From: Porticoccaceae bacterium
GTDB lineage: Bacteria > Pseudomonadota > Gammaproteobacteria > Pseudomonadales > Porticoccaceae
Reading direction: 5' to 3'
Assembly: GCA_012960115.1 (NCBI GenBank)
Contig: DUBX01000004.1
Coordinates: forward strand, 1 to 40,953
Length of the DNA stretch: 40,953 bases
Shown here: in pieces, positions 6,807 through 40,044 of the stretch
Numbering within the stretch: position 1 is the stretch's first letter
Layout of the letters: each line of letters begins with the position of its first letter
The notes under the pieces: model-generated
Told to the model about the DNA's origin: nothing
Database searches by the model: none
Seen by the model: only the letters and a program-made list of their open reading frames with translations
Program-made: the position numbers and the translations under genes

Positions 6807-6830
6807 TTAGTGATTGAGTGAGTAGTTTAT

Positions 6831-7580: not shown

Positions 7581-7590
7581 GAGATTTATT

Positions 7591-9308: not shown

Positions 9309-9330
9309 AATTGAGAAATAAGAGTAATAA

Positions 9331-11798: not shown

Positions 11799-11834
11799 AA
11801 TTAATTAAACATCTTTTTTGCAGGGCGATGACTT

Positions 11835-12992: not shown

Positions 12993-13011
12993 TGCGCATG
13001 GAGAACACAGT

Positions 13012-13443: not shown

Positions 13444-13466
13444 CAAATTTATAAAGGAGTTGCCAG

Positions 13467-14267
13467 TTGGAATTTAATAATAAAGTAGTGGTTGTGACCG
13501 GGGGTGCCAATGGCATCGGCAAGGCTCTGTGTGAACAATTCGCGGCCTTAGGTGCAAAAGTCGCTGTTGTTGACCTTGAGATTGATGCGGCGCAGCAAGT
13601 GGCTAAGTCATGTGGTGGTCTAGGTTTAGGTGCAGATGTGGGTATAGAAACTGATATTCAGTCAGTTGTACTGGCGGTTGAGGCCAAGCTAGGGCCAGTT
13701 GACATATTTGTATCTAATGCGGGCGTTTCTTTTAGTGACGCACCTGGGTGGATGGCCGCTTCAGCGTCTAATGAGTCTTGGCAAACCAGCTGGAATGTCA
13801 ATGTAATGGCTCATGTGTATGCGGCTCGTGCCGTCATTCCTGGCATGATTCAGCGCGGCGGTGGCTATCTTGTCAATGTCGCATCCGGAGCATCCTTGCT
13901 CTGTCAGGTTGGAGACGCTGCTTATTCTACAACGAAGACAGCTGCGCTTGGCTTTGCAGAATCCCTTGCCATTACCCACGGTGATGACAACATAAAAGTG
14001 TCAGTCGTTTGTCCGCTTTATGTAGCGACGCGTATGACCGAGGGCGGGCGAGGTGTTAGCGGTAATGATCAAGTGATGACCGCGGAAGATACTGTCAAGT
14101 CAGTGCTGGAGGGCATGGAGGAGGAGACCTTCTTAATTATGCCTCATGGTGATCTAGCGACCTATGCTCAAGGCAAAGGCGCTGATTATGATCGTTGGCT
14201 GAAGGGTATGAGGAGAATGCGCAAGGGCATTATCGAACAGAACCCTAGTTACGACTATCAACGGTAA
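13467..14267 (+). CDS. Short-chain dehydrogenase/reductase
   Basis: This 266-residue classical SDR has the coenzyme motif 'TGGANGIG', 'VSNAGVS', the active-site Ser in 'NVASGAS' and the Y-x3-K pair in 'YSTTKTAALGF'. It should oxidise or reduce an alcohol/ketone with NAD(P)(H). It starts at TTG, supported by AAGGAG at 13454-13459 seven bases upstream and by the family N-terminus. It is 23 bases after the thioesterase and directly abuts the next gene. The substrate is unknown. Confidence 0.9.
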   Translation: MEFNNKVVVVTGGANGIGKALCEQFAALGAKVAVVDLEIDAAQQVAKSCGGLGLGADVGIETDIQSVVLAVEAKLGPVDIFVSNAGVSFSDAPGWMAASASNESWQTSWNVNVMAHVYAARAVIPGMIQRGGGYLVNVASGASLLCQVGDAAYSTTKTAALGFAESLAITHGDDNIKVSVVCPLYVATRMTEGGRGVSGNDQVMTAEDTVKSVLEGMEEETFLIMPHGDLATYAQGKGADYDRWLKGMRRMRKGIIEQNPSYDYQR

Positions 14268-15332
14268 ATGACAATGTTAACGCAGAAAAATACAGGCCTT
14301 TTGACCTCAGTATTGATGGCTGGAATGTTCCTCCTGATTGGTTGGGCAAAGCCCTCCCTTGCAGGAGATTACGATGGCTATGACGACGATGTAGCCAAGC
14401 TATTGCAGGAATATCAAATTCTTCCAGATGATCAGGGGTCCTATGCACCGTCAGTCCTGTTGTTTAATGAAGGAAGAGACAGCAATACCTTGGTTGATTT
14501 TGAAACAGGGCTAATTGTGATCACCGCTACAACGGAAAACTTATTAAAGCAGTCAATCATTGACGTCCTACTCACTCAAATTGACCCCTCAGTTATTGAT
14601 GCTAAAACGGCTCAAGATTTTGGCCTAACCAACAACAAAACTAATCGACCCTTTTTTTGGGAGCAAGTACTTGATCATACCGGTCAGGCGATAGGCTCTG
14701 AATGGAGGGCGGGTAAATTTGCAGATTACCTTCTGAAGGGCAAAACGCGGCAGAGTGGCCGCTTTAAGGTGTCTCTAGTCATGGTTGAGACCCATAAAGA
14801 TATAGCGGGAGGCAAATACGTGAAGTTAGCTAAAGCGGCTAGTCGTCAGCATAGAGTCCCTGTATCGCTGGTTATGGCAATTATGGAGACGGAAAGTTCA
14901 TTTAACCCGTTGGCACGTTCGCGGTCCAATGCCTTAGGGTTGATGCAGATCAAAGCAGACACGGCGGGACGCGATTATTTCTCCCTTATTAAGGGCTATA
15001 AACATACCCCGACGTCATCCTTTTTATATAGTCCTAAGAACAATATTGAGGTCGCTGCAGGCTATCTCAGTATCTTAGGGAATCGTTATCTGGCGGGGAT
15101 CAAACACTCTAAAAAGAGAGAATACGCGATTATTTCAAGTTACAACGGCGGTGCAGGTAATCTCTGGTTAAGCTTGGATAGAAAGGGAAATAAAACGAAG
15201 TCTCTAGCTCGCATAAATAAAATGTCAGTCTCTGAATTTTATTGGTTTCTAACCAATCGTCATATTCGCAGAGAGACTCGTAATTACGTCAAGAAGGTCA
15301 GTGGGAAACAGGCGAAATATGCCAATTTATGA
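14268..15332 (+). CDS. MltC-like membrane-associated lytic murein transglycosylase
   Basis: A 354-residue exported protein: hydrophobic leader about 10-32 ending 'KPSLA', an N-terminal MltC-type domain, then an SLT domain from about residue 185. The catalytic Glu is E209 in 'METESSFNP', followed by 'SNALGLMQI', 'NIEVAAGYL' and 'SSYNGGAGN'. It should cleave peptidoglycan glycan strands to 1,6-anhydro-muropeptides. Unlike enterobacterial MltC, the leader has no Cys lipobox, so it is probably periplasmic rather than a lipoprotein. It begins immediately after the SDR stop (TAAATG), so it is cotranscribed with metabolic genes despite an unrelated function. Confidence 0.87.
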   Translation: MTMLTQKNTGLLTSVLMAGMFLLIGWAKPSLAGDYDGYDDDVAKLLQEYQILPDDQGSYAPSVLLFNEGRDSNTLVDFETGLIVITATTENLLKQSIIDVLLTQIDPSVIDAKTAQDFGLTNNKTNRPFFWEQVLDHTGQAIGSEWRAGKFADYLLKGKTRQSGRFKVSLVMVETHKDIAGGKYVKLAKAASRQHRVPVSLVMAIMETESSFNPLARSRSNALGLMQIKADTAGRDYFSLIKGYKHTPTSSFLYSPKNNIEVAAGYLSILGNRYLAGIKHSKKREYAIISSYNGGAGNLWLSLDRKGNKTKSLARINKMSVSEFYWFLTNRHIRRETRNYVKKVSGKQAKYANL

Positions 15333-15392
15333 GCGTTTCTGTGACCCTCTAGGTTATCTCTACACTCTAAACAACAACAAGATTTTGCCGAT

Positions 15393-15992
15393 ATGACAAA
15401 ACAGATTACACAGGATGATGGACCCCAAGGTCGCCTCCAGCGCAAGGCATCATTGAGTGGCATCTATATAACAAAATTCCGGCAAGTCTTTCTTCGACAC
15501 GGACTAACCATGGGTTTAGCGGCCCTTGTATGCTTGTTGATGCCTATTGCGACGGAATCTATCCAGTGGAGTACCGCTTCGGTTCTAGGTGATTACCCCC
15601 GTTATTTTGTAATCGGCTCAATGCTAGTTATATTTTTTCTTGGTTATCTGCGCGTTAGAGGCTATTCCACTGACGGACGCGAGCTATTTTGGCTGGTATA
15701 TTTACTGTTTATATCAATTGTTGAGGAGTTTGCCTTTAGATTGATATTGCCTAGTTTTCTGATGGTGCCTGTGGGGGTGATCCCGGCCGCTATTTTAAGT
15801 AATTTGGTGTTTGCCAGCGTGCACTTCTTCACTCTACGCTGGAGACTAGCTAACTGTGTAGGTGTGTTCTTAGGCGGCTTAGGTTTGAGTCGGTTGCTAG
15901 GGACCACTGAAGACATTATTTTAGTCATCGGTGTCCACTGGTTGGTGACATTTTTAAACACGCCGACAGCGCCCACAAAGCAAACAGGTTAA
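15393..15992 (+). CDS. CPBP-family intramembrane glutamic protease
   Basis: The 199-residue protein has several hydrophobic segments (about 38-55, 72-87, 99-110, 122-142, 155-165 and 175-190). The CPBP/CAAX-protease motifs are in place: E111-E112-x3-R116 ('EEFAFR'), 'FASVHFF' with H144, and a final 'GVHWLVTFLN' with H182. Family members are intramembrane proteases related to Rce1. In bacteria they process small membrane substrates or bacteriocin-like peptides, but the target here is unknown. It lies 60 bases after the transglycosylase and is convergent with tesB. Confidence 0.85.
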   Translation: MTKQITQDDGPQGRLQRKASLSGIYITKFRQVFLRHGLTMGLAALVCLLMPIATESIQWSTASVLGDYPRYFVIGSMLVIFFLGYLRVRGYSTDGRELFWLVYLLFISIVEEFAFRLILPSFLMVPVGVIPAAILSNLVFASVHFFTLRWRLANCVGVFLGGLGLSRLLGTTEDIILVIGVHWLVTFLNTPTAPTKQTG

Positions 15993-25642: not shown

Positions 25643-27064
25643 TTGATCGAAGCATTAAAAACTGATTATTTAATCATTGGAAGTGGCCTTGTAGGAATGG
25701 CTTTTGCGGACACTTTGTTTACCGAGACTGATGCTAATATCATTATTGTTGATCGCTATGCCAAGCCTGGAGGCCATTGGAATATGGCCTACCCTTTTGT
25801 GACCTTACACCAACCGTCGTCTTATTTTGGTGTGAGTTCGAAAGAGCTTAGTCGAGGTGAGGTTGACCATATTGGTTTGAATAAAGGTATGGCTGATCTA
25901 GCGACAGGTGATGAATTACTCGCTTATTTTGATGATGTAATGAGACAGCGCTTTTTAGCCAGCGGTCGAGTGCAGTATTTCCCAATGTGCGAATACGAGG
26001 GCGATGGAAAGTTTAGGTCTAAGCTCACCGGGAAAGAACACGCTGTTTCCTATCAGAAGTTGGTCGACGCGACTTTTTTGACCATCGCAGTGCCATCCAC
26101 CCATACACCCAACTTCACCATAGCCCCAGAAGTGACGTTTATGCCTCTCAATGACCTTCCTAAGGTGACTCAGAAGCCAGAAGGTTACATTGTTATAGGA
26201 GGCGGGAAAACGGGTATAGACGCCTGTTTATGGCTTCTTGATAGGGATGTCGACCCCGATGACATCACCTGGATACGATCTCGTGATGCATGGTTGCTTG
26301 ATCGCACCAATACACAACCAACGGAGGAATTTTTTAGTTCCTCGGTAGGCTCTATAGCCGCCCAATACGAGGCTGTTGGCGGCGCCAGTTCTATTGAAGA
26401 TATGTTTGATCGTCTTGAAGAAGGCGGCTATCTACTGCGTTTGGATAAGACGGTACGGCCGACTATGTTTCACGCGGCCACTATCAGTAAGGCTGAAATT
26501 GCGCAGTTGCAGCGAATTAAGAACATTGTGCGCCTGGGTCAGGTTAGCGCGATTGAATCAGACCGTATTATCTTATCAAAAGGCGAAATTCCCACCACCA
26601 CAGGGCACGTTCATGTTGACTGCTCGGCTAGTTTGGAGCGCTCGTTTGGCCACAAAGAGCCATGCCCCATATTTGGTGGCGACTGTATTACGCCGCAAAT
26701 GATACGTGCCTATCAGCCAGCATTTAGTGCGTCAATGGCAGCCTATGTTGAGGTAAACTACGAGAAGGAAGCCGAGAAAAACCGTCTTTGCTCTTTGGTG
26801 CCGCTACCAAACAATGATGTGGATTTTATACCTATGACCTTGGCTACGATGATGAACCAATTCAATTGGTCTCAAGATAAGCCGTTGCGCCATTGGATTC
26901 GTGAAAACCGGCTAGACGGGTTTACTAAACTTATTAGTGGGATAGATAAGAATGATCAAGAAAAAATGAAAATTATGCAACGTATTCAAAACAACGCAAT
27001 GCCAGCCATCGCTAAACTACAGCAGTTTAACGTGGAACTGGCGCAAGGAGCTGAAAATGAGTGA
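25643..27064 (+). CDS. FAD-dependent NAD(P)-binding oxidoreductase of unknown substrate
   Basis: This 473-residue protein has an N-terminal FAD site 'LIIGSGLVGMAFADTL' with 'VDRYAKPGGHWN', and a second dinucleotide site 'YIVIGGGKTGIDACLWLL' near 181-198, as in flavin monooxygenase-like enzymes. 'AYPFVTLHQPSSYFG' follows the first site. I recognise the fold but not a named enzyme. It starts at TTG with AGGGAG at 25631-25636. The last eight bases overlap the DUF2855 gene, so the two are coupled and may act together. Confidence 0.8.
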   Translation: MIEALKTDYLIIGSGLVGMAFADTLFTETDANIIIVDRYAKPGGHWNMAYPFVTLHQPSSYFGVSSKELSRGEVDHIGLNKGMADLATGDELLAYFDDVMRQRFLASGRVQYFPMCEYEGDGKFRSKLTGKEHAVSYQKLVDATFLTIAVPSTHTPNFTIAPEVTFMPLNDLPKVTQKPEGYIVIGGGKTGIDACLWLLDRDVDPDDITWIRSRDAWLLDRTNTQPTEEFFSSSVGSIAAQYEAVGGASSIEDMFDRLEEGGYLLRLDKTVRPTMFHAATISKAEIAQLQRIKNIVRLGQVSAIESDRIILSKGEIPTTTGHVHVDCSASLERSFGHKEPCPIFGGDCITPQMIRAYQPAFSASMAAYVEVNYEKEAEKNRLCSLVPLPNNDVDFIPMTLATMMNQFNWSQDKPLRHWIRENRLDGFTKLISGIDKNDQEKMKIMQRIQNNAMPAIAKLQQFNVELAQGAENE

Positions 27065-28166
27065 ATTTCAAACCTATAAAAACGACCTAGCCAAGTCACG
27101 TGTGGTTCAGACAGACAAGGCTCAAGCCTTAGTTGACCTAAAAGACGGCGACATTTTGGTCAGTATTGAACGCTTTGCCTTTACCGCTAACAATGTCACC
27201 TATGGCGCCGCTGGCGATACTATAGGCTATTGGAAGTTCTTTCCGGCCACGGCCAACGAGAGCGGTGAGTGGGGCTGTTTGCCCGTTTGGGGCTTCGCGG
27301 AAATCACAGCCTCTAAGCGTGAAGGGTTGAGTGTCGGTGAGCGAATTTACGGCTATTTCCCACCGGCTGATTTTCTTGTTATGTCGCCAATCAAAGCATC
27401 TGTTCAGCGTTTCATGGATGGTGCACCGCATCGGGCAGAACTGCCTGCGGTGTACAACAACTATCTGTTAATGTCAGGTGAGGCTAACTACGATGCGTCC
27501 AGTGACAATGTTCGCGCCCTGTTAAATCCATTGCATGTGACCTCATTTTGTTTGTGCGATGCCTTACAAGACGAAGACTATCATGGTGCTGAACAGGTAA
27601 TTGTTCTCAGTGCGTCCAGTAAAACGGCAATCGGCATGGCCCAAGGGTTAGCAGATGACGCAAGTGCCCCAAGGGTTGTGGGCATCACGTCCAGACCAAA
27701 CTATGACTTTGTGGAGTCTCTAGGTTGTTATGATGAGATTATCTGTTACGACGAGTTAGGCTCTATTGATGCAAGCAAAGCCACTGTAATAGTTGATATG
27801 GCCGGTAATAGGGCAGTGTTGGGCGCTATACATGGACCCTTGGGCGACAATATGCTCAATTGTGTCAGCGTTGGTATGACCCACTGGGAAACCCTGGCTG
27901 ACAATGATCCTCTGGCCGCTCAAATTAATCGAGGGCGAAGCAACTTTTTCTTCGCACCGGCGCATGTTCAAAAGCGTGTTGGTGACTGGGGTCAAGACGG
28001 ATTTAATCAGCGTACTGGTGCATTCATGAAGGCTCGCATGCAGCAGAGCGCAGGCTGGATGAGTGTGGAGACGGTGGCTAATTTTGAGGCGTTCACTAAG
28101 GTTTATGCTGACGTGGTGGTGGGTAAAATGAATCCCAATGAGGGCCTTATTGTCTTGCCCCTGTAG
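27057..28166 (+). CDS. DUF2855 family protein
   Basis: The 369-residue protein has the DUF2855 pattern: 'IERFAFTANNVTYGAAGD', 'IGYWKFFPA', 'WGCLPVWGFAEI', 'GERIYGYFPPADFLV' and 'LSASSKTAIGMAQGL'. The family is distantly MDR-like, but the usual glycine-rich dinucleotide loop is not clear. Its function is unknown. The ATG has AAGGAG at 27045-27050 six bases ahead, inside the preceding gene. Overlap with the flavoprotein suggests a two-component oxidoreductase. Confidence 0.88.
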   Translation: MSEFQTYKNDLAKSRVVQTDKAQALVDLKDGDILVSIERFAFTANNVTYGAAGDTIGYWKFFPATANESGEWGCLPVWGFAEITASKREGLSVGERIYGYFPPADFLVMSPIKASVQRFMDGAPHRAELPAVYNNYLLMSGEANYDASSDNVRALLNPLHVTSFCLCDALQDEDYHGAEQVIVLSASSKTAIGMAQGLADDASAPRVVGITSRPNYDFVESLGCYDEIICYDELGSIDASKATVIVDMAGNRAVLGAIHGPLGDNMLNCVSVGMTHWETLADNDPLAAQINRGRSNFFFAPAHVQKRVGDWGQDGFNQRTGAFMKARMQQSAGWMSVETVANFEAFTKVYADVVVGKMNPNEGLIVLPL

Positions 28167-29340: not shown

Positions 29341-32300
29341 TTATTCAGTTAGATTAAACAGCTGTGTATTGCCTCCCCGTGCAACTAAGTTTTCGGTACG
29401 CGTCCGTTCGCTTAAAAACCATAACAGCCAGTGATAGTGGTAACCCTGATTATTTTTAGGCCACTCGATTAATGGGATAATACTGCCGCTGCGCTTGGCG
29501 ATGATTTGTCGCAATGATTGACTATTAGTATCCGCGGTGTTGGCTATTACTCCGGAAATGTCAGGGTGCTGAATAAGATCTGCTGACTCATCAAGGCTAA
29601 CTATGGTTATTAGATGTTTTGGGGTGCCGTCTTTAGAATAGTTATTCATCACCCTGATTAGTTTGGTTTTTAAACTCTGATGGACTGCAATAATGAGGGG
29701 GCAACCGCAGAGTAATGCGCAACCGATTTGCTGGAGAGCTGATTCGAACAGATCAGCCTCCCTTATCAGCAGGAGCATGACTCCACGTCCATGTACTGAC
29801 AGTTGGTTGGCTTCGCCAGTTGGACCGGGCAGTTCAATGGGCATTGCGATATTCTTTAAGGCAATGGCCTGAGTTTCAGGGCTAAGTAAAACAGATTTGT
29901 CATCTCCTGATAGAATATTAATGCGTTCCTTTATGGAGCTGCTTTGCCACTGCTGCATTGCCTGTGATGCGAGAGAAACCTTAACTATCTCATCTCTCCC
30001 TCTGGTTTTTTCGATTAGGCTGAAGATGGGGCCGCCACTAGTTAGTGATAATCCGGTCTCATCCTTTACTGAAGAAAAACGAAAAAGATAATTCGGCCCT
30101 CCAGCTTTGGGTCCGGTTCCTGATAGGCCACGCCCACCAAACGGATTAACACCAACGACGGCTCCGATCATGTTCCGGTTAATGTAAACATTGCCAGCGA
30201 TCGTTTTTCTAAAGACCGTGTCCGCAAAAGCTCCAATGCGGCTGTGAATGCCTAGAGTAAGCCCATAACCGGTACCGTTAATCTGTTGTATGACCTGGTC
30301 GAGTTGACCTGCAGAGTAGCGAATGACATGTAGTACTGGCCCAAAGACTTCTTCGTTAATCTGATCCAGTGAATCTATTTCAAAGACATGAGGCGCGACA
30401 AAGCTACCATTGCCGCAAGATTCATTTAGTTCAACCTTGGCGATTAAGGTGGCCTCTCGTGTCATACGGTCAATATGAGCATCAAGAGCGTGCTTTGCAC
30501 CCATGTCGATCACAGGCCCTAAATCAGTGTCCAGGTGCCTTGGGTTGCCACCTTTAATTGAGGACATGGCGCCAGATAGCATCGTGAGTACCTGATCGGC
30601 AATATCCTGCTGTATAAACAGAACGCGAAGAGCAGAGCAACGTTGCCCCGCGCTTAGAAATGCGGAGCTGATAACATCATCAACCACTTGCTCAGGCAGA
30701 GCCGTTGAATCCACTATCATGCAGTTTTGACCACCCGTTTCGGCAATAAAGGGGATAGGGTTTCCTGGGCGACTAGCTAGATGACGGTTAATGATTAGGG
30801 CTGTCGCGGTTGCACCGGTAAATGCAATTCCCGCAATACGTGGGTCTTCAATGAGTATCGTACCTATTTTGGAACCGCTTCCTAAAAGCAGATGCAATGC
30901 CTGGTGCGGCACACCAGCGAGGTGAAATAGTTTTATAGCATAGGCGGCTACAGCTGGCGTTTGCATGGCCGGTTTGGCAATCACAGTGTTGCCTGCGACT
31001 AACCCTGCGGCAATTTGACCCACAAAAATGGCCAGCGGAAAATTCCATGGACTGATGCATAAAAACACGCCTTGGCCTTGTAATTCTAACGATGACTCCA
31101 GGTTTATGTGACGCGCCTGGGTGGCATAGTAGCGACAAAAATCAATGGCTTCTCTGACTTCTGATAAACCATCATTAAGTGTTCGCCCGGCTTCGTTCGC
31201 TATTATAGTGATGAGGTCGGCACAGTCGCGCTCCATGTAATTTGCGACTTTGTCCAAGATGTCCGCACGATAGGTATGTCCTTTGCTATTCCAGCCGGAC
31301 TGAGCTGCGTAGGCGGATTCTAATGCCTGCAAAACGTCATCTTGACTCGCTGCACTGAAATGGCCAATAAGTTCAGAATGGTTCGCCGGGTTGAAATGCT
31401 GTCTGAGCTCATGCTCGGCGTTTTCACCATTAACGATCGAGTGCGTCAGGAGTAAATATTTTGAAAATTTCTCGGCATGATTTAACAATGCTTGGGTATC
31501 ATGGGCCGAATCCAGATCAATACCTCGAGCGTTCTTGCGCATCTCACCCACGGCTTCGAAAATCCGTTCTGGAATCGGTATTCCTTTGTGTTGGTATGGA
31601 AATGTACTCGTCACTTCTGTTCGTGTGTCGTTGAGGAGTTCTTCAACGGGTGTCTGCTTATCAAGAAAACGATTAACGAAAGAACTATTTGCGCCGTTCT
31701 CAAGTAGTCGACGAACAAGGTAAGGCAGCAGATCTTTATGGTTACCAATAGGGGCATAGACTCTGACCGCAAATGGCCTGTCGGGATGCTGTTTTTGCAG
31801 TTGAGGGTATAGGCTATGACCCATGCCATGCAATCTTTGAAATTCAAACTCACGATCACCTGCTAATGCCAATATCATGGAAGCGGTATAGGCATTATGC
31901 GTAGCAAATTGAGGGAATATTGATTGCGGCGCATCCAGCAATAGTTCTGCGCAGTGTTGATAACAGAGGTCGGTGTTGGATTTTCGGGTGAACACAGGGT
32001 AGCTTTCAAGCCCTTGCTCTTGGGCATGCTTAATCTCTGCATCCCAATAGGCTCCTTTAACCAAACGCACCATTAATCGCCGATTGGTTTGTTTAGCAAC
32101 AGCAATGAGCCATTTGGCTGTATCGGGTGCTCGTTTTTGGTAGGCTTGTAATACAAAACCAAGGCCTTGCCAGCCGGCTAAGTCGGCATCGTTGGCTAGA
32201 TGTTCAAAGATATCTAGGGATATGTCTAGGCGATATGATTCTTCTGCATCAATAGAAAGACCTATATTGTGGTCTTTGGCTTGTTGGCAGAGTTGCTTGA

Positions 32301-33114
32301 TACGAGGTAACAGCTCATTCATCACTAGTGAGTGTTGGGCGAAATAGTAGCGTGGGTGCAGAGCAGAAAGTTTTACGGAGATGCCATTTGCCTGATAAAC
32401 GTCTGAATAATTGTCCGTACTTTTTTGGCGTGCGGCACCGATCTCATCAATGGCTTGGCTATAGGCCCGCAAGTACGCACGAGCATCATCATCGGTGCGG
32501 GCACCTTCGCCGAGCATGTCGAAAGAAAACAGAGTGTCACTATGGTTCTTCTTCAGGCCTTGATTAATACCTTCAGCGATAGTGCGGCCAAGTACGTATT
32601 GCCCTCCCATGATACGCATTGCTTGCATCACAGCAGCACGAATGGCCGGCTCGCCCATGGTTGCTGTGAGTCGCTTTATCCAGCTGTCTGGATGCTGAGT
32701 AATATGCGTATCTAAGCTAACTAAGTGCCCGGTCAACATAAGCCCCCAGGTAGACGCGTTGACGAATAATGAGTCTGACTGACCCCGATGAGCACTCCAC
32801 TTCCCTGATCGAATTTTTTCGGCGATTAGGCGGTCTGCTGTTAGTCCATCAGGGACACGCAAAAGCGCTTCGGCTAAGCACATCAACGCAACACCCTCAC
32901 CATTGGATAAGCCAAACTGGAGTAAAAAAGCATCGAGGGTTCCGCCGCTGGCTTTGTTTGCTCTGCAGTCGGTGACGAGTTGTCGGGCAGAATTAAGTAT
33001 GCCGTCTCTAGCCTCTTGCGACAGAGGATTGCGATGGATAAGTTGACTCACTGCTTGGTGCTCATCGATATGCGCGGTTTTCCGGATGTGTTGTCGTAAT
33101 TGAACTTGGTTCAT
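29341..33114 (-). CDS. putA: Bifunctional proline dehydrogenase / glutamate-semialdehyde dehydrogenase PutA (long form without DNA-binding domain)
   Basis: A 1257-residue PutA. FAD-dependent proline dehydrogenase domain: 'KLSALHPRY' 248-256, 'SIDAEESYR' 287-295, 'RLVKGAYWDAEI' 350-361, 'FATHNAYT' 403-410. Aldehyde dehydrogenase domain: 'ISPWNFPLAI' 687-696, general base E792 ('AETGGQN'), catalytic C826 ('AGQRCSA'). About 230 residues follow the dehydrogenase, as in long PutA forms. The N-terminus begins in the arm region, with no ribbon-helix-helix, so unlike the E. coli protein it should not repress its own gene. It converts proline via pyrroline-5-carboxylate to glutamate. A divergent Lrp-type gene is the likely regulator. 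Confidence 0.96.
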   Translation of the reverse strand: MNQVQLRQHIRKTAHIDEHQAVSQLIHRNPLSQEARDGILNSARQLVTDCRANKASGGTLDAFLLQFGLSNGEGVALMCLAEALLRVPDGLTADRLIAEKIRSGKWSAHRGQSDSLFVNASTWGLMLTGHLVSLDTHITQHPDSWIKRLTATMGEPAIRAAVMQAMRIMGGQYVLGRTIAEGINQGLKKNHSDTLFSFDMLGEGARTDDDARAYLRAYSQAIDEIGAARQKSTDNYSDVYQANGISVKLSALHPRYYFAQHSLVMNELLPRIKQLCQQAKDHNIGLSIDAEESYRLDISLDIFEHLANDADLAGWQGLGFVLQAYQKRAPDTAKWLIAVAKQTNRRLMVRLVKGAYWDAEIKHAQEQGLESYPVFTRKSNTDLCYQHCAELLLDAPQSIFPQFATHNAYTASMILALAGDREFEFQRLHGMGHSLYPQLQKQHPDRPFAVRVYAPIGNHKDLLPYLVRRLLENGANSSFVNRFLDKQTPVEELLNDTRTEVTSTFPYQHKGIPIPERIFEAVGEMRKNARGIDLDSAHDTQALLNHAEKFSKYLLLTHSIVNGENAEHELRQHFNPANHSELIGHFSAASQDDVLQALESAYAAQSGWNSKGHTYRADILDKVANYMERDCADLITIIANEAGRTLNDGLSEVREAIDFCRYYATQARHINLESSLELQGQGVFLCISPWNFPLAIFVGQIAAGLVAGNTVIAKPAMQTPAVAAYAIKLFHLAGVPHQALHLLLGSGSKIGTILIEDPRIAGIAFTGATATALIINRHLASRPGNPIPFIAETGGQNCMIVDSTALPEQVVDDVISSAFLSAGQRCSALRVLFIQQDIADQVLTMLSGAMSSIKGGNPRHLDTDLGPVIDMGAKHALDAHIDRMTREATLIAKVELNESCGNGSFVAPHVFEIDSLDQINEEVFGPVLHVIRYSAGQLDQVIQQINGTGYGLTLGIHSRIGAFADTVFRKTIAGNVYINRNMIGAVVGVNPFGGRGLSGTGPKAGGPNYLFRFSSVKDETGLSLTSGGPIFSLIEKTRGRDEIVKVSLASQAMQQWQSSSIKERINILSGDDKSVLLSPETQAIALKNIAMPIELPGPTGEANQLSVHGRGVMLLLIREADLFESALQQIGCALLCGCPLIIAVHQSLKTKLIRVMNNYSKDGTPKHLITIVSLDESADLIQHPDISGVIANTADTNSQSLRQIIAKRSGSIIPLIEWPKNNQGYHYHWLLWFLSERTRTENLVARGGNTQLFNLTE

Positions 33115-33207: not shown

Positions 33208-33323
33208 ATATCGCTTAATACTATTTATTAGATTATTATGCTTTGTAAGATTTTGTTAAATAGAGATCGTGTGGCGGTGGTAATAGACGTCGTTCTTAAT
33301 TGGGATTAAACAAAGAGGTGGCA

Positions 33324-33800
33324 ATGAAAAATGTAGCGGAGCTTGACCGGATAGATAAACGAATTCTAACGGTACTGCAAGGTAACGGAAGGATTTCTAA
33401 TGTAGAGTTATCACGCCAAGTTAATCTGACACCAACGCCCTGTCTAGAGCGAGTGAAAAGATTGGAGAAAGAGGGATTCATCACAGATTATGTGGCTCTA
33501 ATTGATCCCGTAAAGGTTAATTCTGGCCTCTGTGCTTATATCGAGATTCAGTTGGTGAGTTCAACCACTGATGCATTTAAGCGTTTTAACCAACAGATGA
33601 TTGATCTTCCTGAGGTCCAAGAGTGTCAAATGGTGGCTGGAGGTTTTGATTATTTGATTAAGATTCGAGTGGCCGATATGCAGCATTATCAGCGTTTTTT
33701 AGGTGAGAAACTTGCCTCGATCAGTGATATCAGCCAAACCCATACATACGTCGTTATTCAAGACGTTAAATCTGAAACTGCAATACAGATTAACAGCTAG
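33324..33800 (+). CDS. Lrp/AsnC-family transcriptional regulator (PutR-like)
   Basis: This 158-residue regulator has an N-terminal HTH ('ELDRIDKRILTVLQGNGRIS', 'NVELSRQVNLTPTPCLERVK', 'RLEKEGFI') and a C-terminal RAM effector domain ('VQECQMVAGGFDYLIKIRV'). The ATG at 33324 has GAGG five bases upstream; a TTG in the same frame at 33300 lacks a site. Divergence from putA suggests it activates putA in response to proline, as PutR does in some alpha-proteobacteria; this is inference. Its 3' end overlaps alanine racemase by four bases, convergently. Confidence 0.93.
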   Translation: MKNVAELDRIDKRILTVLQGNGRISNVELSRQVNLTPTPCLERVKRLEKEGFITDYVALIDPVKVNSGLCAYIEIQLVSSTTDAFKRFNQQMIDLPEVQECQMVAGGFDYLIKIRVADMQHYQRFLGEKLASISDISQTHTYVVIQDVKSETAIQINS

Positions 33801-34897
33801 TTACTATAAACCCGAGGCACTCGGGAGGGCATGCGTGTCAGCAGTTCGTAACCGATCGTGTTGCAGTATTCGGCAATTTCGTTAACCGAAAGTTCAGGCC
33901 CCCAAAGAATGACTTTGTCTCCGATAGATACAAGATTGAGGTCGGTGACGTCCACGGTAATCATATCCATTGAAACGCGTCCCACCAGAGGGCAGCGCTC
34001 TCCATTAACAAGTACGGGAGTGCCATTGGGCGCCTGACGTGGGTAACCGTCACCATAGCCAACGGTTATCGTGGCGATGATTGAGTCTCGATCTGCCGTC
34101 CAGTTAGCGGTGTAGCCTACTGAATCGCCAGATGCAATATGACGCAGGGAAATCACTGCCGACTGCAGAGACATAACAGGTTGAAGTTTGTTGGCGTTAT
34201 CTTGTTTTTCTGAGAAAGGTGAGTTTCCATAGAGCATATAGCCAGGTCGTTGCCAGTCGCGATGCGTTTCAGGCCAAGCTAGGATTGCTGCAGAATTAGC
34301 CAGGGATTCAGCAATAACATCGCCAGCAGTTGGTTTCAGGGATGTCATCCATCGATCAAAAATTGCCATTTGTTTTTTTGTCGCGCTACTACCTAAATCA
34401 TCAGCACAAGCGAAGTGCGAGGATGCGACAATGGGTTTGGCGACATTGTCGGTATTGCTAAGCGCAAGATAGGTTTGGGTAGCTTCTTGAGGCTGAAACC
34501 CGAGTCGGTGCATACCTGTATCGACGCTGATCCATACACTCACCGGGCGGGAGATGGAAGCATTGATAATCGCATCTTTTTGGGAGGAATTCTCAACCAT
34601 TAGGATGAAATTATTATCAGCTGCAATCTCAACTTCATCAATAGAAAAAGTACCCTCAAGCAATAAAATAGGTTGCTTGATACCTGCCTCCCTAAGTACC
34701 AGCGCTTCATCAATTGATGCAACACCAAAGGCTGGCGCAGATTGGGATAACGCACGACATACCTCTACCATGCCATGCCCATAAGCATTCGCCTTTACCA
34801 TAGGAATGGCGCTGGCTTCTGGTGCCAATGATTTTACCAAGGCGAAATTTGCCCTTAGAGCTTTTAGATCAACAATAGCGACAGTAGGTCTTGTCAT
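33797..34897 (-). CDS. alr: Alanine racemase
   Basis: The 366-residue fold-type III PLP enzyme has the PLP lysine K35 in 'MVKANAYGHG', 'DTGMHRLGF', the catalytic tyrosine Y262 in 'SVGYTANW', and 'VGYGDGYPR', 'VGRVSMDMITVD'. It interconverts L- and D-alanine. The biosynthetic (Alr) or catabolic (DadX) role cannot be fixed; no DadA is adjacent. It follows D-amino acid transaminase by 14 bases, so the pair can make D-alanine and convert it to D-glutamate, or the reverse. Confidence 0.96.
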   Translation of the reverse strand: MTRPTVAIVDLKALRANFALVKSLAPEASAIPMVKANAYGHGMVEVCRALSQSAPAFGVASIDEALVLREAGIKQPILLLEGTFSIDEVEIAADNNFILMVENSSQKDAIINASISRPVSVWISVDTGMHRLGFQPQEATQTYLALSNTDNVAKPIVASSHFACADDLGSSATKKQMAIFDRWMTSLKPTAGDVIAESLANSAAILAWPETHRDWQRPGYMLYGNSPFSEKQDNANKLQPVMSLQSAVISLRHIASGDSVGYTANWTADRDSIIATITVGYGDGYPRQAPNGTPVLVNGERCPLVGRVSMDMITVDVTDLNLVSIGDKVILWGPELSVNEIAEYCNTIGYELLTRMPSRVPRVYSN

Positions 34898-34911
34898 AAT
34901 AGTGGGTGCCG

Positions 34912-35769
34912 TTAGTAATTAAACTTATGGGCGGAAAATAGCCTTTGAGCTGCCAGCCAGACATCGCCGACTTTGCCGTCTCCAATGAGGCTTCCGTCCA
35001 CTTCAATGACCGCGCCAATCTCTTTGGTAGAACTGGTAATCCAGACCTCATCAGCGTCAAGTACCTCTTGTTTGCTGACGATTCGCTCTTCAACCGGAAT
35101 TGAACCATCTTTACGCAGAATATCTAGTAGCATATGGCGCGTAATCCCAGGTAAAAGCTGATTATCTAGAGGTGGAGTGATAAGCGCTCCATCTTTAACG
35201 ATAAAGACATTACATGAACTGGCTTCTGTGAGTTCATTGTTGGCGTTAAACAATAAGGTCTCATCAGTGCCCTGGTCGTATCCTTGCTGAAAATGCAAAA
35301 CATTGCCCAGTAGCGCGGTCGATTTAATGTGGCAGCGCTGCCACCTCAGGTCCTCGGCAGTTGATACCTTATAGCCTTTAGCAACCATTTTGTCTGCTAC
35401 TGGTGCCGTAGGAATGTCAAAGGTAAAGCCAAAGACCGTTGGCTCAACGTCTTCAGGGAAAGCATGGAACCGTTTGGTATCTGCTCCCCGACTAACCTGT
35501 AGGTAAATACCTAAATTACCGTTGCCATTTTTACTGGCAAGGCCTTCACAAAGCGCTTTCCATTGCTGGTGCGACCAATCAATGTTCAAGCCAATACCTT
35601 TGAATCCATCGTTCATTCGGTCAATATGAGGGCCAAAACCTAATAAGATTCCTTGGTAGGAGGGGATAACCTCATAAATGCCGTCACCGAAAAGAAAGCC
35701 TCGATCCAGTGGCGAAATCTTTGCCTCTGACATGGGCATGTACGAACCATTTAGAAAAACAATACTCAT
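34912..35769 (-). CDS. dat: D-amino acid transaminase (D-alanine aminotransferase)
   Basis: A 285-residue class IV (fold-type IV) aminotransferase: 'LDRGFLFGDGIYEV' 21-34, PLP lysine K149 in 'CHIKSTALLGN', 'ELTEASSCNVFIV' and 'LLPGITRHMLLDIL'. The 'RxH' substrate-carboxylate motif (R100, H102 in 'KRFHAFPE') marks D-amino acid transaminase rather than branched-chain or ADC lyase members. It catalyses D-Ala + 2-oxoglutarate to pyruvate + D-Glu, reversibly. It is upstream of alr and downstream of the PxpC-cyclase fusion, with its own candidate promoter between. Confidence 0.9.
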   Translation of the reverse strand: MSIVFLNGSYMPMSEAKISPLDRGFLFGDGIYEVIPSYQGILLGFGPHIDRMNDGFKGIGLNIDWSHQQWKALCEGLASKNGNGNLGIYLQVSRGADTKRFHAFPEDVEPTVFGFTFDIPTAPVADKMVAKGYKVSTAEDLRWQRCHIKSTALLGNVLHFQQGYDQGTDETLLFNANNELTEASSCNVFIVKDGALITPPLDNQLLPGITRHMLLDILRKDGSIPVEERIVSKQEVLDADEVWITSSTKEIGAVIEVDGSLIGDGKVGDVWLAAQRLFSAHKFNY

Positions 35770-35843
35770 TGGTAAACCTTACGTTAATTTGAGCTAAAAA
35801 AAGCGAGGAGCTAATCGTTCGTTTTACATATTATCGATCAAAA

Positions 35844-35872
35844 ATAGTACCAGTTAGTGCTGTTTTAGACAA
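35844..35872 (-). promoter_or_regulatory. Candidate sigma70 promoter for dat-alr
   Basis: Read on the minus strand, TTGTCT (35867-35872) and TACTAT (35844-35849) are separated by exactly 17 bases, giving a transcript leader of about 70 bases before dat. The 195-base gap (35770-35964) after the fusion gene is the longest in this strand run, so an internal promoter is plausible. No terminator for the upstream gene is evident. Confidence 0.5.
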
Positions 35873-35964
35873 AGCTAATTGGTTTTAAATTACGCTAATC
35901 AGCTTCGTTCGAAGGAGAATTTTTGGCTAAATCAGCGTTTTAGTTGAAAATATCTGGTGAGTCG

Positions 35965-37737
35965 CTAAAACCCTGATAACTTTCTTAGATTAGTGACAAG
36001 CTGCTGGCTGACCTCTGAATCGACACCATCTTCTGTTAGGGTGTTTTCGCCAGTGACACCGTCCACACTGCCGCCGTCTGAAAGCATCTGGAGTACCGCC
36101 TTATTATTCCAGTCTGCGAGTATATCTTGACCGCTGATTGCAGATAATAATGCGGTTAAACCATGGGCAGCCCAGTTGGAGATGTCAGCAAGAAGAAGCT
36201 CGTCGCAACCGGTGATTGCCGGACGAATATGAAGCAGTTCTAGTGCTTTAGCAATGTTTCCCATACCTATCTCATTACCCCCATCACCTATGGCGATAGT
36301 GGGGCAGGTGGCTAGGGACAGAAAGCTATCATAATCGGCACAGTGCTCTGAAATGTCTATACCACGCATGTTGTAGTAGCGACCATCATTAGACAGCCCT
36401 GGGCGTTCAATTGAAATAACCAAGGCAGGTTGGTAGTGATCGAGAGCTTTCTGGGCTTGGTTTTGACCGTCTTCATCTATTTTGATCTCTAGAGTCTGAA
36501 AGTCTGTGTTTAACAAAGTACATAGTGGCGTCTCACAGACTAACATTGGAGAGCCACCAATGGCTTCTATCGCCCGATATAGTGCGATTGCGCCAAGTGG
36601 ACCATCGGTTTCAAAGCTACCATTTACGGGAAAACCGGTGCCGATTAGTATTTTACCTTGGGCATTGTGAATCAGTTGAGCGGCTCTTAAGTATGATCCG
36701 TCTTCGATAGCGGATGACATTGTCTTCATGCCCCTAGGGTTGCTAGCGACTAACAGGTTTTCTATTGTTTTGGATAGAGCATCTAGGTTTACGGTAGCCT
36801 TATGTTGCTGAAAACTAATCTCAGCAAGATGCTTTAGATTATGTGCTTGCTCGATACTCACCTCTTCAAAACACACAGCGGCTTCTGGCCCAAGTTGCGC
36901 TAATTTATCGAGATCCAAAGACAGTACAGAGCCTATTTTGGGGTATCCACCAATGGTTTGGCGGTCATTAAGTAGGATTATCGGTTGCCCATCAGGTGGG
37001 ACTTGAATTGCACCCTGGCAAATACCTTCAGACAGAATGCCGCCAACAGAGGGTTTGATAGCCGGTCCGAGCAGTCTAAAACCCATCCGATCATTACGCT
37101 CTGAAATACGGTATTGCCCGTGAAAAAACTGTTTTCTCTGTTGCTCTGTGAAGTAATCTTGCTGGTAGCCTAAGACGACCCTCAGGCTCGTCAATTCAGG
37201 GGTTATTGTTAGATTTTTAGGTTGCTCTTCGTTCGGCATGAAAGATGGAGAGTGCAATAGAGTTTCAGTGCAGGGTATGACGTCACCGCTAGCAAGAGGC
37301 CTACCGTCACCGGTTAAGCCTCCAACCGACTCTCTGGTAACCGTCGCACAACTGCCAAATGTAGGTTCTACATTAAAGCCCCCAGTCACGCCTACATAGC
37401 ATCGCATGCCTACCTTGGCGTAACCTAACTCAATGCGGTCTCCGGGCTTGATCCGATGAGCCGTCCAACAATTTACCGGGATTTTGTTGAGGCTAAGCTC
37501 GACGAGGGCCCCGGTAACGACAAAATAGGTATCAACCGTGGACTCTAGCACCAAGCCGCCTATGGTCACTTCAATAGTGGGTGTGTTAATAGGGTTTGAG
37601 CACAATTTGTTGGCCCAGCGAAAAGAATGACGATCTAAGGGTCCTCCTACCGTAAGACCAATATGATGTTTGCCAAAGCGGCCCTCATCTTGGATTAAAC
37701 TGTGAACGCCTGGTTGAATAACTCTTAGCCCGGTCAT
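35965..37737 (-). CDS. pxpC: Fusion of 5-oxoprolinase subunit PxpC and DUF4392 (D-glutamate cyclase C-terminal-like)
   Basis: A 590-residue two-part protein. Residues 1-305 are PxpC/KipA (biotin-dependent carboxyltransferase-like): 'VHSLIQDEGRFG' 11-22, 'GGPLDRHSFRWAN' 31-43, 'LLNDRQTIGGYPKIG' 255-269. Residues about 320-590 are a DUF4392 domain: 'GTGFP' 366-370, 'ETDGPLGA' 376-383, 'SIERPG' 442-447, 'YYNMRGIDIS' 454-463, 'GDGGNEIGMGN' 484-494. PxpC with PxpA and PxpB cleaves 5-oxoproline to glutamate using ATP. DUF4392 is the C-terminal part of eukaryotic D-glutamate cyclase DGLUCY. The frame is continuous and both motif sets look intact. It overlaps pxpB by four bases (ATGA). The fusion suggests coupling of 5-oxoproline formation and cleavage. 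Confidence 0.9.
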   Translation of the reverse strand: MTGLRVIQPGVHSLIQDEGRFGKHHIGLTVGGPLDRHSFRWANKLCSNPINTPTIEVTIGGLVLESTVDTYFVVTGALVELSLNKIPVNCWTAHRIKPGDRIELGYAKVGMRCYVGVTGGFNVEPTFGSCATVTRESVGGLTGDGRPLASGDVIPCTETLLHSPSFMPNEEQPKNLTITPELTSLRVVLGYQQDYFTEQQRKQFFHGQYRISERNDRMGFRLLGPAIKPSVGGILSEGICQGAIQVPPDGQPIILLNDRQTIGGYPKIGSVLSLDLDKLAQLGPEAAVCFEEVSIEQAHNLKHLAEISFQQHKATVNLDALSKTIENLLVASNPRGMKTMSSAIEDGSYLRAAQLIHNAQGKILIGTGFPVNGSFETDGPLGAIALYRAIEAIGGSPMLVCETPLCTLLNTDFQTLEIKIDEDGQNQAQKALDHYQPALVISIERPGLSNDGRYYNMRGIDISEHCADYDSFLSLATCPTIAIGDGGNEIGMGNIAKALELLHIRPAITGCDELLLADISNWAAHGLTALLSAISGQDILADWNNKAVLQMLSDGGSVDGVTGENTLTEDGVDSEVSQQLVTNLRKLSGF

Positions 37738-38462
37738 TTAAGTGCTCCCAGACTATCCAGGCTACCACCAAGATCTATAAATTCTTGTTTACTGATGGCT
37801 TTAAATATAACTCTGTCTCCCGTCGATACGGGCATGATCGAGTCAGCCTTTGCCTCGAACATGGGTGTTGGGCAAAGCCCGATTACGTTCCACCCGCCGG
37901 GTGATTCAGCAGGATAAACAGCTGTTTGACGGTCGGCAATTGCCACGGCTCCACGAGGCACTTTAAGTCTTGGTGTAGCCAGTCTAGGTGCCGCTATACG
38001 CTCGTCGACTTCCCCTAAGTACGCAAAGCCAGGAGCGAAACCAATGGCGTAAACTCGATATTCTGTAGTTTGATGAATATCTATTACTTGATCAGTTGTT
38101 AAGCCTTTTTTTTCCGCTAAGGAGACTAAATCTGGCCCTGATTCAAGGCTGTAATAGACAGGGAGAGTAATGAGGTTCCCTGCATGATTTGTTGATGTCT
38201 CAGTACATTGGCTGGAAATCTCAGTTGTAGCCGCACGAATGATTTTAGATACCGCAAAGTGATCGGTAAGTAGAGCATCATAGATGACTAAAATAGAGGC
38301 ATAAGAGGCGACTAGATCAATGAGCTTAGAGCCCAGCGCGAGACGAATAGCCGACGAACAAGCTTGTATCTGAGTTGCTACTGCGGCATCAACATGATCG
38401 GAAAAATACACTATTAGAGAATTTTCTCCGGCGACCGATATTCTGACGGCTTGATTTGTCAT
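37734..38462 (-). CDS. pxpB: 5-oxoprolinase subunit PxpB (KipI-like)
   Basis: The 242-residue product has the KipI/PxpB core: 'VYAIGFAPGFAYLGEVD', 'RLKVPRGAVAIADRQTAVYP' and 'ESPGGWNVIGLCP'. With PxpA and PxpC it forms the ATP-dependent 5-oxoprolinase; in Bacillus the homologue was first described as a kinase inhibitor. The start at 38462 ('MTNQAVRIS') is preferred because the frame upstream overlaps the end of pxpA without similarity. It begins 10 bases after pxpA and overlaps pxpC by four. Confidence 0.93.
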   Translation of the reverse strand: MTNQAVRISVAGENSLIVYFSDHVDAAVATQIQACSSAIRLALGSKLIDLVASYASILVIYDALLTDHFAVSKIIRAATTEISSQCTETSTNHAGNLITLPVYYSLESGPDLVSLAEKKGLTTDQVIDIHQTTEYRVYAIGFAPGFAYLGEVDERIAAPRLATPRLKVPRGAVAIADRQTAVYPAESPGGWNVIGLCPTPMFEAKADSIMPVSTGDRVIFKAISKQEFIDLGGSLDSLGALK

Positions 38463-38472
38463 TGGTGATCCA

Positions 38473-39204
38473 TCATCGGAGTAACTGGCGGACTTCTTCA
38501 ATGGCCGCCACGCCATCTGCATTGTCACCATGGACGCAAATTGAATCGGCTTGAATGGATAGCCTATGACCACTGACGGTTGTTATGGTGCCGCTTTTAT
38601 CAAGTTGCGCGACCTGTTCCAGCATCATTTCACGGCTGTGTACTGCGCCAGGTAGTTTTCTACTCAGCAAGGACCCATTATCAGCATAGCAACGATCGGC
38701 AAAGGCTTCAAAGATAACCTCTAGACCAAAAGCGGCAGCTTCTTGGCGATGAGTGTCGGCATCTGGGGTGGCTTGTAACATAAACGCTAACGGCTGTGGT
38801 GTGGAGCTGACAGCCTGCATTACGGCGCTACGAACAAGCCCATTTACCATCATATCGTTGTACAAGGCGCCGTGAGGTTTCACATAAGAAACTGAAACGC
38901 CTACCTCGACCGCAATTTGAGTTAGCGCTGCAATTTGAGACTGTACTAGCTCGATCAATTCGTGGCTGGGCAGTGACATTGAACGACGTCCGAAGCCTTC
39001 TCTATCTGGATAGCTAGGATGGGCACCCACGCAAACACCATTTTCTTTGGCTAGAAGCAATGTTGATCTCATCATGTCTGCGTTACCTGCATGGACACCG
39101 CAAGCAATATTGGCTTGATCGATATGAGGCATTACAAGGGCGTCAACATCCATGACATCACAATGGGTGCTTTCACCTAGATCACAATTTAACAATAGAG
39201 ACAT
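38473..39204 (-). CDS. pxpA: 5-oxoprolinase subunit PxpA (LamB/YcsF family)
   Basis: This 243-residue protein has the full YcsF/PxpA set: 'LLNCDLGES' 4-12, 'ANIACGVHAGN', 'GAHPSYPDREGFGRR', 'YVKPHGALYN', 'FADRCYADNG' and terminal 'SICVHGDN'. PxpA is the catalytic subunit that opens the 5-oxoproline ring with PxpB and PxpC. It is 33 bases downstream of the DUF1445 gene and leads the pxpABC order seen in many bacteria. Family assignment is secure; stereochemical preference is not visible from sequence. Confidence 0.96.
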   Translation of the reverse strand: MSLLLNCDLGESTHCDVMDVDALVMPHIDQANIACGVHAGNADMMRSTLLLAKENGVCVGAHPSYPDREGFGRRSMSLPSHELIELVQSQIAALTQIAVEVGVSVSYVKPHGALYNDMMVNGLVRSAVMQAVSSTPQPLAFMLQATPDADTHRQEAAAFGLEVIFEAFADRCYADNGSLLSRKLPGAVHSREMMLEQVAQLDKSGTITTVSGHRLSIQADSICVHGDNADGVAAIEEVRQLLR

Positions 39205-39237
39205 AACCGTATCCTAACTAAATTCTGGCCCAATTAA

Positions 39238-40044
39238 TTAGCGCTGATCAAAAGTGCTATTGAGTATATCTGTAACCAACATACAGCCAGGGCTGTGAGT
39301 GATGCAAAAGGGCAGTTTTGCCTGTTCAAGCGTGACCTGAGGCGTCACTCCACAGGCCCAAAAAACAGGTTGTTCATCGTTGTTAATTGTTACGGCATCA
39401 CCGTAATCTGGCTTATTAATATCGTTTATCCCTATTAGTTTAGGGTCACCAAAATGGATTGGCGCGCCATGCACCGATGGAAATCGCCCCGTCACCTGGA
39501 TGGCTTCCTGAGTATCTTTGCTGTTGAAAGGGCGCATGCTAACCACCATCTTTCCCTTAAAGGGTCCAGCGGGAGTGCAGTCAATGTTAGTTCGATACAT
39601 GGGAACATTTCGATTTTGGCTAATATTGCGCACCTCTAAGCCTTCTGCAATCAGGGCGTCCTCAAAGGAAAATGAACAGCCGATTAAGAAAGCGACTAAA
39701 GTGTTGTCCCATAAAGCTGAAATGTCAGACATTTCACGTGTTAACTGGCCATTTTCGAACAATCTGTAACTCGATAGATCTGTTCGAACGTCAAGGTCTT
39801 GACCTAACTCGGCAAGATGAGGGTCGCCGACTTTGGACACCGCAATAAGTGGGCATGGCTTTGGGTTGGCTCGACAAAAGAGCCTAAAGTCTTCAGCAAA
39901 TGCTTCAGGTAAAATCACCATATTGCATTGAACATACCCCTTACAGAATCCGGAGGTGGCACCGATGTGCTCGTTGTTGCGGATCAACCTACGAAGTTGC
40001 ACTGGACTGAGGTTATTGGGCATATTATTGGGCGCCTTTTGCAT
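39238..40044 (-). CDS. DUF1445 protein (YcsI / D-glutamate cyclase N-terminal-like)
   Basis: A 268-residue member of DUF1445, often labelled 'putative hydro-lyase': '[17 protein letters not shown]', '[12 protein letters not shown]', '[18 protein letters not shown]', '[13 protein letters not shown]', '[11 protein letters not shown]' and '[12 protein letters not shown]'. In eukaryotic DGLUCY this domain precedes DUF4392, and the enzyme converts D-glutamate to 5-oxo-D-proline. Here the domain is a free protein next to pxpA. Start either at 40044, directly after the proS stop (TAAATG), or at 40023 ('MPNNLS') behind AAAAGG. Its separate role beside the fused DUF4392 is inference. Confidence 0.9.

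Follow-up and report, generated by a model that had tools for sequence, protein, structure and literature searches.

A candidate D-glutamate module joining the two halves of D-glutamate cyclase to PxpABC, a D-amino-acid transaminase and alanine racemase in Porticoccaceae

The Bacillus subtilis pxpABC operon reportedly contains the DUF1445 gene ycsI and a manganese (Mn) importer (PMC10448178); DUF1445 beside pxpABC is hence already known from this source, and the module presented here is built from known families. The text of a Corynebacterium glutamicum study on 5-oxo-L-proline does not mention 5-oxo-D-proline, D-glutamate or an enantiomer (PMC13274462). In D-glutamate cyclase (DGLUCY), DUF1445 and DUF4392 form a single protein, which a preliminary description of the DNA studied here had called eukaryotic; this is too wide, since the mouse paper states that DUF1445 is conserved only in vertebrates (PMC5339696). 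In the present work we analyzed a stretch of 40,953 nucleotides (nt) from a Porticoccaceae bacterium (assembly GCA_012960115.1, contig DUBX01000004.1; hereafter, the window), where DUF1445 and DUF4392 are encoded at opposite ends of pxpABC and are followed by dat and alr. The overall explanation that we favor, with a probability of roughly 0.5, is a D-glutamate module with the order DUF1445-pxpA-pxpB-pxpC-DUF4392-dat-alr, carrying out a net D-to-L inversion. That DUF1445 and DUF4392 work together, on the D-glutamate/5-oxoproline node and with PxpABC, appears probable, and the inversion step taken alone is a tentative proposal at somewhat less than even odds. Neither the whole module nor the PxpC-DUF4392 fusion or the link with Dat was found described in the open-licence literature, as searched by titles and the beginnings of abstracts.

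The four-gene minus-strand run DUF1445, pxpA, pxpB and pxpC-DUF4392 of the preliminary description was confirmed, with Pfam domain calls over the curated cut-offs and a single open frame for the fusion (Table 1). The four genes are real, but the unit continues past position 35965 through dat and alr, on the same strand and in conserved order, so that six genes span 33797-40044. The short gaps and overlaps described for the run were likewise found between DUF1445 and pxpA (33 nt), between pxpA and pxpB (10 nt, with an ATG start) and between pxpB and pxpC (a 4-nt overlap); the overlap of about 100 nt between pxpA and pxpB, on the other hand, is probably not genuine, because an in-frame ATG lies at 38462, 10 nt past the end of pxpA. 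Further down, gaps of 195 nt and 14 nt separate pxpC-DUF4392 from dat and dat from alr, respectively, and the proS stop codon directly precedes the DUF1445 start. Purifying selection acts on each of the six genes, with ratios of nonsynonymous to synonymous substitution (dN/dS) of 0.05-0.11 between the window and one relative of the genus (G007). Scans for promoters (9 sites versus 12.7 in shuffled sequences) and terminators (5 versus 6.7) revealed no excess; the operon boundaries thus rest on spacing and conservation, the scans being no better than shuffles.

Table 1. Coordinates of the module genes and of the flanking genes in the window
Feature	Position	Strand	Basis and remarks
DUF1445/D-Glu_cyclase (PF07286), first gene of the module	39238..40044	-	Pfam 228 bits; separate-gene counterpart of the N-terminal half of vertebrate DGLUCY
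pxpA (LamB/YcsF)	38473..39204	-	Pfam LamB_YcsF; NF003816
pxpB (CT_C_D), from the likely ATG	37734..38462	-	Pfam; TIGR00370; the open frame itself is 37734-38573, with GTG at 38573
pxpC-DUF4392 fusion, whole frame	35965-37737	-	two Pfam domains in a single open frame
PxpC half of the fusion protein, residues 1-305	36823..37737	-	Pfam CT_A_B (residues 26-291); TIGR00724
DUF4392/GLUCM-like_C half of the fusion, from residue 321	35965..36777	-	Pfam 222 bits (residues 329-585)
dat, D-amino-acid transaminase (class IV)	34912..35769	-	Pfam Aminotran_4; PDB matches; conserved position in the order
alr, alanine racemase	33797..34897	-	TIGR00492 380.3 bits, cut-off 168
Lrp-type regulator	33300..33800	+	flank kept in most loci of the genus; no pathway role claimed
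putA	29341..33114	-	flank kept in most loci of the genus; no pathway role claimed

The strongest sign that DUF1445 and DUF4392 work as one unit, as they do in the vertebrate protein, is their joint absence. DUF4392 is present in 25 of the 35 genomes of the window's genus (SAR92/Porticoccaceae, the window's own genome included); where both sites are assembled, 19 genomes harbor both DUFs on one contig and eight harbor neither (G005, G008, G010, G014, G017, G018, G033 and G034). The latter retain pxpA-pxpB-pxpC-dat-alr, in unchanged order, beside proS. In a tree of flanking and core proteins, the absence represents two events within the genus, in two clades, and one further event was found outside it (G044, on a long branch). 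Since the two genes lie at opposite ends of pxpABC, a single deletion cannot remove both of them and spare pxpABC. Two more genomes (G012 and G032) possess both DUFs, on separate contigs; G030 and G031 (74% and 85% complete), which have neither DUF nor Dat, were left out of the count.

A second line of evidence comes from the fusion. PxpC-DUF4392 is one open frame in the window and in eight other aligned genomes of the genus, DUF4392 being a gene of its own in the rest. One fused genome (G004) clusters with split genomes on both trees, which gives two fusion changes on each; the fusion therefore fits two origins. The number is two with G012 and G032 left unscored and becomes three if G032 and G037 are scored as split, whereas the fusion group table gives four since rows cut by contig ends are treated there as not fused. 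Repeated fusion would be most easily understood if the partners shared a substrate or belonged to one complex.

Regarding the wider distribution, a scan of genome contigs confirmed at least 567 relatives, the best 80 of which were kept as named loci. DUF4392 occurs in three of the 21 order-level relatives searched, in 3/369 genomes of the class sample and in 10/398 of the phylum sample, the window's genome being included in the latter two. As judged from tblastn on 29 relative loci and on the 80 named loci, the order DUF1445-pxpA-pxpB-pxpC-DUF4392-dat, often followed by alr, recurs across the Gammaproteobacteria, over many families. The bracketing of pxpAB by the two DUFs, which the preliminary description had pointed out, was indeed seen, but it is the usual order in the relatives, most of which carry DUF4392 as a gene of its own. 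Counting neighbors by profile, and restricting the count to named loci with enough DNA around DUF4392, we found PxpA in 70/70, PxpB and PxpC in 70/71 each and DUF1445 in 63/66; Dat lies within 3 kilobases (kb) in 59/70 and Alr within 4 kb in 33/70. Conversely, the 36 pxpA loci of the class sample that lack DUF4392 (the 40 genomes with PxpA minus G000, G319 and G415, which have DUF4392, and G164, whose PxpA is fragmentary) contain Dat once (L222), DUF1445 once (L207) and Alr never. For Dat the contrast corresponds to a Fisher p of 3e-17, to be taken as a description more than as a probability, the loci being related. Moreover, PxpA is found in seven of the nine class-sample genomes with DUF1445 against 40/369 overall (Fisher p 3e-6), and the two genes are adjacent in four of the seven genomes having both.

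These data bear on the simplest alternative, that is, an ordinary pxpABC 5-oxo-L-prolinase operon with the DUFs, Dat and Alr as incidental neighbors. PxpABC alone is common and acts on 5-oxo-L-proline in the characterized cases, and within the genus pxpABC outlives the DUFs. Nevertheless, the fixed order over many families, the contrast with the control loci, the two fusions and the joint absence of genes placed at opposite ends make this alternative very improbable. The ties that had been proposed between the DGLUCY halves, and between these and pxpABC, are thus upheld by the lack of both DUFs in two clades of the genus, by the fusion with its two inferred origins and by the fixed order; the comparison of DUF1445-pxpABC-DUF4392 neighborhoods that had been suggested as a check revealed an order kept in the relatives, as opposed to control loci without DUF4392.

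Some loci depart from the common arrangement. In G037 (L056, L206 and L205) and in P. lipolytica (L111 and L204) the module is scattered, with pxpA-DUF4392-dat in one place and pxpBC elsewhere; in G037 DUF1445 is also at a separate site. Four loci (e.g., L150:8888-9928) have a pyridoxal phosphate (PLP)-dependent (PALP) enzyme, forming one cluster of open reading frames (ORFs), between DUF4392 and dat, and a LysR regulator (ORF cluster c6, 25/85 loci, e.g., L125:8872-9774) lies, among the loci listed, mostly in the same interval; one representative of each cluster was scanned. In Rheinheimera sp. D18 (L119:9879-11018) a ligand-gated ion channel whose binding domain is of the glutamate-receptor type is located directly downstream of dat. 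In the window itself, a DUF2855 protein is encoded at 27057-28163 (323.5 bits).

The identity of the single proteins was checked against curated models. DUF1445 matches NCBIfam NF003969 ("putative hydro-lyase") with 401.6 bits (cut-off 324) and has PDB relatives (3db9 and 2pif); its profile also matches the B. subtilis control. Its AlphaFold2 (AF2) model reached a mean predicted local distance difference test (pLDDT) value of 86.6. A Foldseek search with this model retrieved, outside the family itself, just 3nek (MJ0159, nitrogen-repressor-like; E 8.5e-5, template modelling (TM) score 0.36-0.45, root-mean-square deviation (rmsd) 8-11), a weak match that was not used; nor was the AF2 model of the PxpC-DUF4392 fusion, built from nine sequences, with its mean pLDDT of 59.7. 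The subunit genes A, B and C of PxpABC are all present together: PxpA scores 305.5 bits with NF003816 (cut-off 213; solved relatives 2xu2, 1v6t, 1xw8 and 2dfa), PxpB 147.2 bits with TIGR00370, just over the cut-off of 145.55, and the PxpC half 273.3 bits with the wider domain model TIGR00724 (cut-off 230.2; PDB relative 5dud, YbgK). As for Dat, its 13 PDB matches are headed by nine D-amino acid or D-alanine aminotransferases (best E 1.6e-55), followed by four branched-chain enzymes, and its alignment retains IKS, which we take to be the PLP lysine motif, and R-x-H, whose residues presumably have a role in D-amino-acid transaminases. Concerning DGLUCY, both the DUF1445 and the DUF4392 domains are encoded, and not as a single polypeptide; because DUF1445 is separate and DUF4392 is joined to PxpC, the pair was filed as a split counterpart and not as DGLUCY itself.

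The DUF4392 half could be examined further, since it matches TON_0340 in the PDB (E 3e-33), with an alignment in which its six metal-ligand positions (PMC5132392) correspond to E376, D378, E444, D485, E489 and D570 of the fusion protein. These acidic residues are invariant in 11 aligned sequences, so that the metal site, judged from the alignment, appears intact. TON_0340 has a two-metal site and a weak Mn-dependent phosphatase activity (PMC5132392), and it might be argued that DUF4392, with its intact site and its fusion to PxpC, is an Mn-dependent phosphatase hydrolysing gamma-glutamyl phosphate before it re-cyclises, with the help of DUF1445 and no D-stereochemistry involved. We regard this as improbable: the 36 control pxpA loci manage without DUF4392, DUF1445-DUF4392 pairs exist without adjacent pxpABC, the TON_0340 activity is itself described as low (PMC5132392), and mouse DGLUCY is reported to have D-glutamate cyclase activity (PMC5339696).

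Dat and Alr, which the preliminary description had missed, bear directly on its stereochemistry puzzle. MurI (TIGR00067) was found over the cut-off in none of the 35 genomes of the genus, with weak matches below it in G007 and G019, and in 15 of the 21 order-level relatives. Dat, which can supply D-glutamate, is present in 33 of the 35, including two (G011, locus L053, and G017, locus L254) where dat carries in-frame stop codons, as does the DUF4392 gene of G011, owing to decay or assembly error. Dat and Alr are hence the likely D-glutamate source in this genus, as predicted from gene content, and they give D-glutamate both a source and a sink. The idea that the module is itself a route of D-glutamate synthesis is ruled out by the genomes of the genus which, having neither the DUF pair nor MurI, keep Dat and Alr.

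The cell-wall setting is more explicit in some relatives. In all five gammaproteobacterial genomes of the phylum sample besides the window's own (L199-L203), DUF1445 adjoins DUF4392; L199 has the whole of pxpABC and L201 only pxpBC, no pxpABC gene was found in L200, L202 and L203, and Dat is present in L199 and L201. The flanks of L199, L201 and L203 encode NamZ, a kinase fused to the N-acetylmuramic acid (MurNAc)-6-phosphate etherase MurQ (in L199, TIGR00274 419.7 bits, cut-off 302) and a sodium symporter, and, variously, glycoside hydrolase family 3 (GH3), a MurR/RpiR-type regulator, a D-Ala-D-Ala carboxypeptidase and a flavin adenine dinucleotide (FAD)/iron-sulfur (Fe-S) dehydrogenase of uncertain substrate; GH3 and the dehydrogenase are also present in P. 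lipolytica (L111). The GH3, MurR-like and FAD/Fe-S dehydrogenase assignments fall below the curated NCBIfam cut-offs. L200 also contains, at 4679-15400 (G771) and adjoining the DUF1445 gene, an open frame of 3573 residues that contains two DUF4392 domains and matches DUF4781. In a genome of another class (L198), the gene for a DUF4392 protein with 37% identity shares a run with those for MurD (294 bits, cut-off 212) and for a MurL-like protein, whose match (E 2e-79, 267 bits) stays below the cut-off of 700; MurD and MurL together make D-glutamate at the nucleotide-precursor level. A further member of this run (L198:7753-12710, G556) is a protein of 415 residues to which neither Pfam nor NCBIfam gave a match. 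In L195-L198, which lie outside the Gammaproteobacteria, blastp of the flanks retrieved no DUF1445, Pxp or Dat, L196 being only 6 kb long and DUF4392 not being recovered among the ORFs of L195; no MurD/MurL-type link was seen in L195-L197. The D-glutamate setting that had been predicted is therefore borne out by Dat, by Alr and by the lack of MurI over the cut-off in the genus, as well as, in some relatives, by genes of MurNAc catabolism or by MurD together with a MurL-like protein.

From these observations we infer the following chemistry. Alr would convert L-alanine into D-alanine, and Dat would form D-glutamate and pyruvate from D-alanine and 2-oxoglutarate, both reactions being reversible. 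DUF1445 and DUF4392 would work as a single enzyme made of two parts, a bacterial, split equivalent of vertebrate DGLUCY, turning D-glutamate that is in surplus or recovered from wall peptides into 5-oxoproline; this would be passed to PxpABC, which would open the ring with adenosine triphosphate (ATP) to give glutamate. A D-glutamate cyclase and a D-specific PxpABC acting on free D-glutamate would constitute a futile ATP cycle, whose enzymes would hardly be expected to be fused; the glutamate that enters and the one that leaves should thus differ. For this reason we favor a net inversion of D-glutamate into L-glutamate inside the DUF1445/DUF4392 pair, in which one half may cyclise and the other epimerise before an L-specific PxpABC acts. 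The earlier suggestion that DUF1445 supplies the missing step possibly fits here.

Several observations weigh against this explanation. Purified mouse DGLUCY reportedly yielded 5-oxo-D-proline and no L-glutamate (PMC5339696), which argues against an epimerisation within the DUF pair. The PxpC half remains below the cut-off of the PxpC equivalog NF045499 (204.9 versus 500 bits) and is therefore classed as PxpC-like, with no claim to the equivalog function; in the same way, Dat is below that of the equivalog TIGR01121 (237.5 versus 277.45 bits), and the dat product is filed as D-amino-acid transaminase-like. MurI is present in 14 of the 42 module genomes available for the 80 named loci, which rules out that the module requires the loss of MurI. 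In four genomes (G001, G006, G013 and G016) DUF4392 was found without a DUF1445 match; in every one the contig ends short of the DUF1445 site, which accounts for the missing gene, though less surely so in G016 (99% complete). Dat is missing within 3 kb of DUF4392 in 11 of the 70 named loci: it lies 3.2-4.4 kb away in L150, L169, L173 and L177, a 33-36% relative on the opposite strand is all that was found in L122 and L145, and there is none in L114, L124, L131, L151 and L174. The DUF pair occurs without pxpABC in the G202-type loci (L202 and L203), and pxpBC is at another genome site in P. lipolytica and G037. Furthermore, a search at E 1e-12 detected no NamZ, MurQ, MurK-like, GH3 or MurR-like gene, either in the window or among the loci of the genus that were examined, and the p-values overstate independence because the named loci are mutually related.

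The main rival to a D-to-L inversion is a gamma-D-glutamyl substrate, in a mirror-image gamma-glutamyl cycle. The DUF pair would be a gamma-D-glutamyl cyclotransferase splitting wall peptides such as gamma-D-glutamyl-meso-diaminopimelate (mDAP) into 5-oxo-D-proline and mDAP, a D-specific PxpABC would give D-glutamate, and Dat/Alr would lead to 2-oxoglutarate and L-alanine, with neither an epimerase nor a futile cycle needed. We know of no D-specific PxpABC, which counts against this rival. It agrees with the mouse enzyme, which is reported to form the D ring (PMC5339696), and with the MurNAc-catabolism setting of L199, L201 and L203. Dat and Alr, moreover, stay with pxpABC where both DUFs are gone, as if the PxpABC product were the Dat substrate, and PxpABC-Dat without DUFs is also found in L222 and L255; on the other hand, Dat and Alr may persist only as makers of D-glutamate for the wall. 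On balance we consider this rival unlikely. Slightly more doubtful is its extension to a D-series gamma-glutamyl cycle on cell-wall peptides in which vertebrate DGLUCY, by homology, could also cleave gamma-D-glutamyl-DAP. The latter is an innate immune signal; if the extension were true, DGLUCY would not be merely a free-D-glutamate cyclase but able to dismantle a bacterial peptide.

A net inversion, which we continue to prefer, would provide a fate for wall-derived D-glutamate in marine bacteria, namely a dedicated route for mirror-image glutamate; marine D-amino acids are counted, in one study, as slow-cycling organic matter (PMC10845958). DGLUCY is a mitochondrial enzyme conserved in vertebrates, and both the fate of its product and the division of labor between its domains are unexplained in the parts of the literature covered. 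An operon that separates its halves and joins one of them to a 5-oxoprolinase subunit, beside D-glutamate enzymes, brings both points within reach of experiment, on bacterial proteins that are small and soluble.

Compared with the known systems, the window shares with the PxpABC operons (ycsF-ycsG-ycsI-kipI-kipA in B. subtilis and pxpTABC in C. glutamicum) the grouping of pxpA, pxpB and pxpC, and with the former a DUF1445 gene (ycsI); it adds dat, alr and a DUF4392 domain joined to PxpC, whereas the Mn/NRAMP importer (ycsG) was not seen among the window genes examined. With vertebrate DGLUCY (9030617O03Rik/C14orf159) it shares DUF1445 and DUF4392, the metal ligands of the DUF4392 family being intact, but it has two genes in place of one protein, with DUF4392 joined to PxpC. 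TON_0340 of Thermococcus onnurineus (4fc5, 5gl2-5gl4 and 5gkx) is a homologous DUF4392 with the same six acidic ligands, although it is a stand-alone archaeal protein, probably an Mn-dependent phosphatase (PMC5132392), and the window DUF4392 is a fused half. The D-amino-acid transaminase route to D-glutamate without MurI is matched by Dat and Alr in a genus with no MurI over the cut-off; in the window, by contrast, dat and alr are joined to a 5-oxoproline module in one operon. Lastly, the mammalian gamma-glutamyl cycle consists of a cyclotransferase and a 5-oxoprolinase, turning a glutamyl unit into a ring that is opened with ATP, as proposed here, and the window would represent its D-series version if the gamma-D-glutamyl rival holds.

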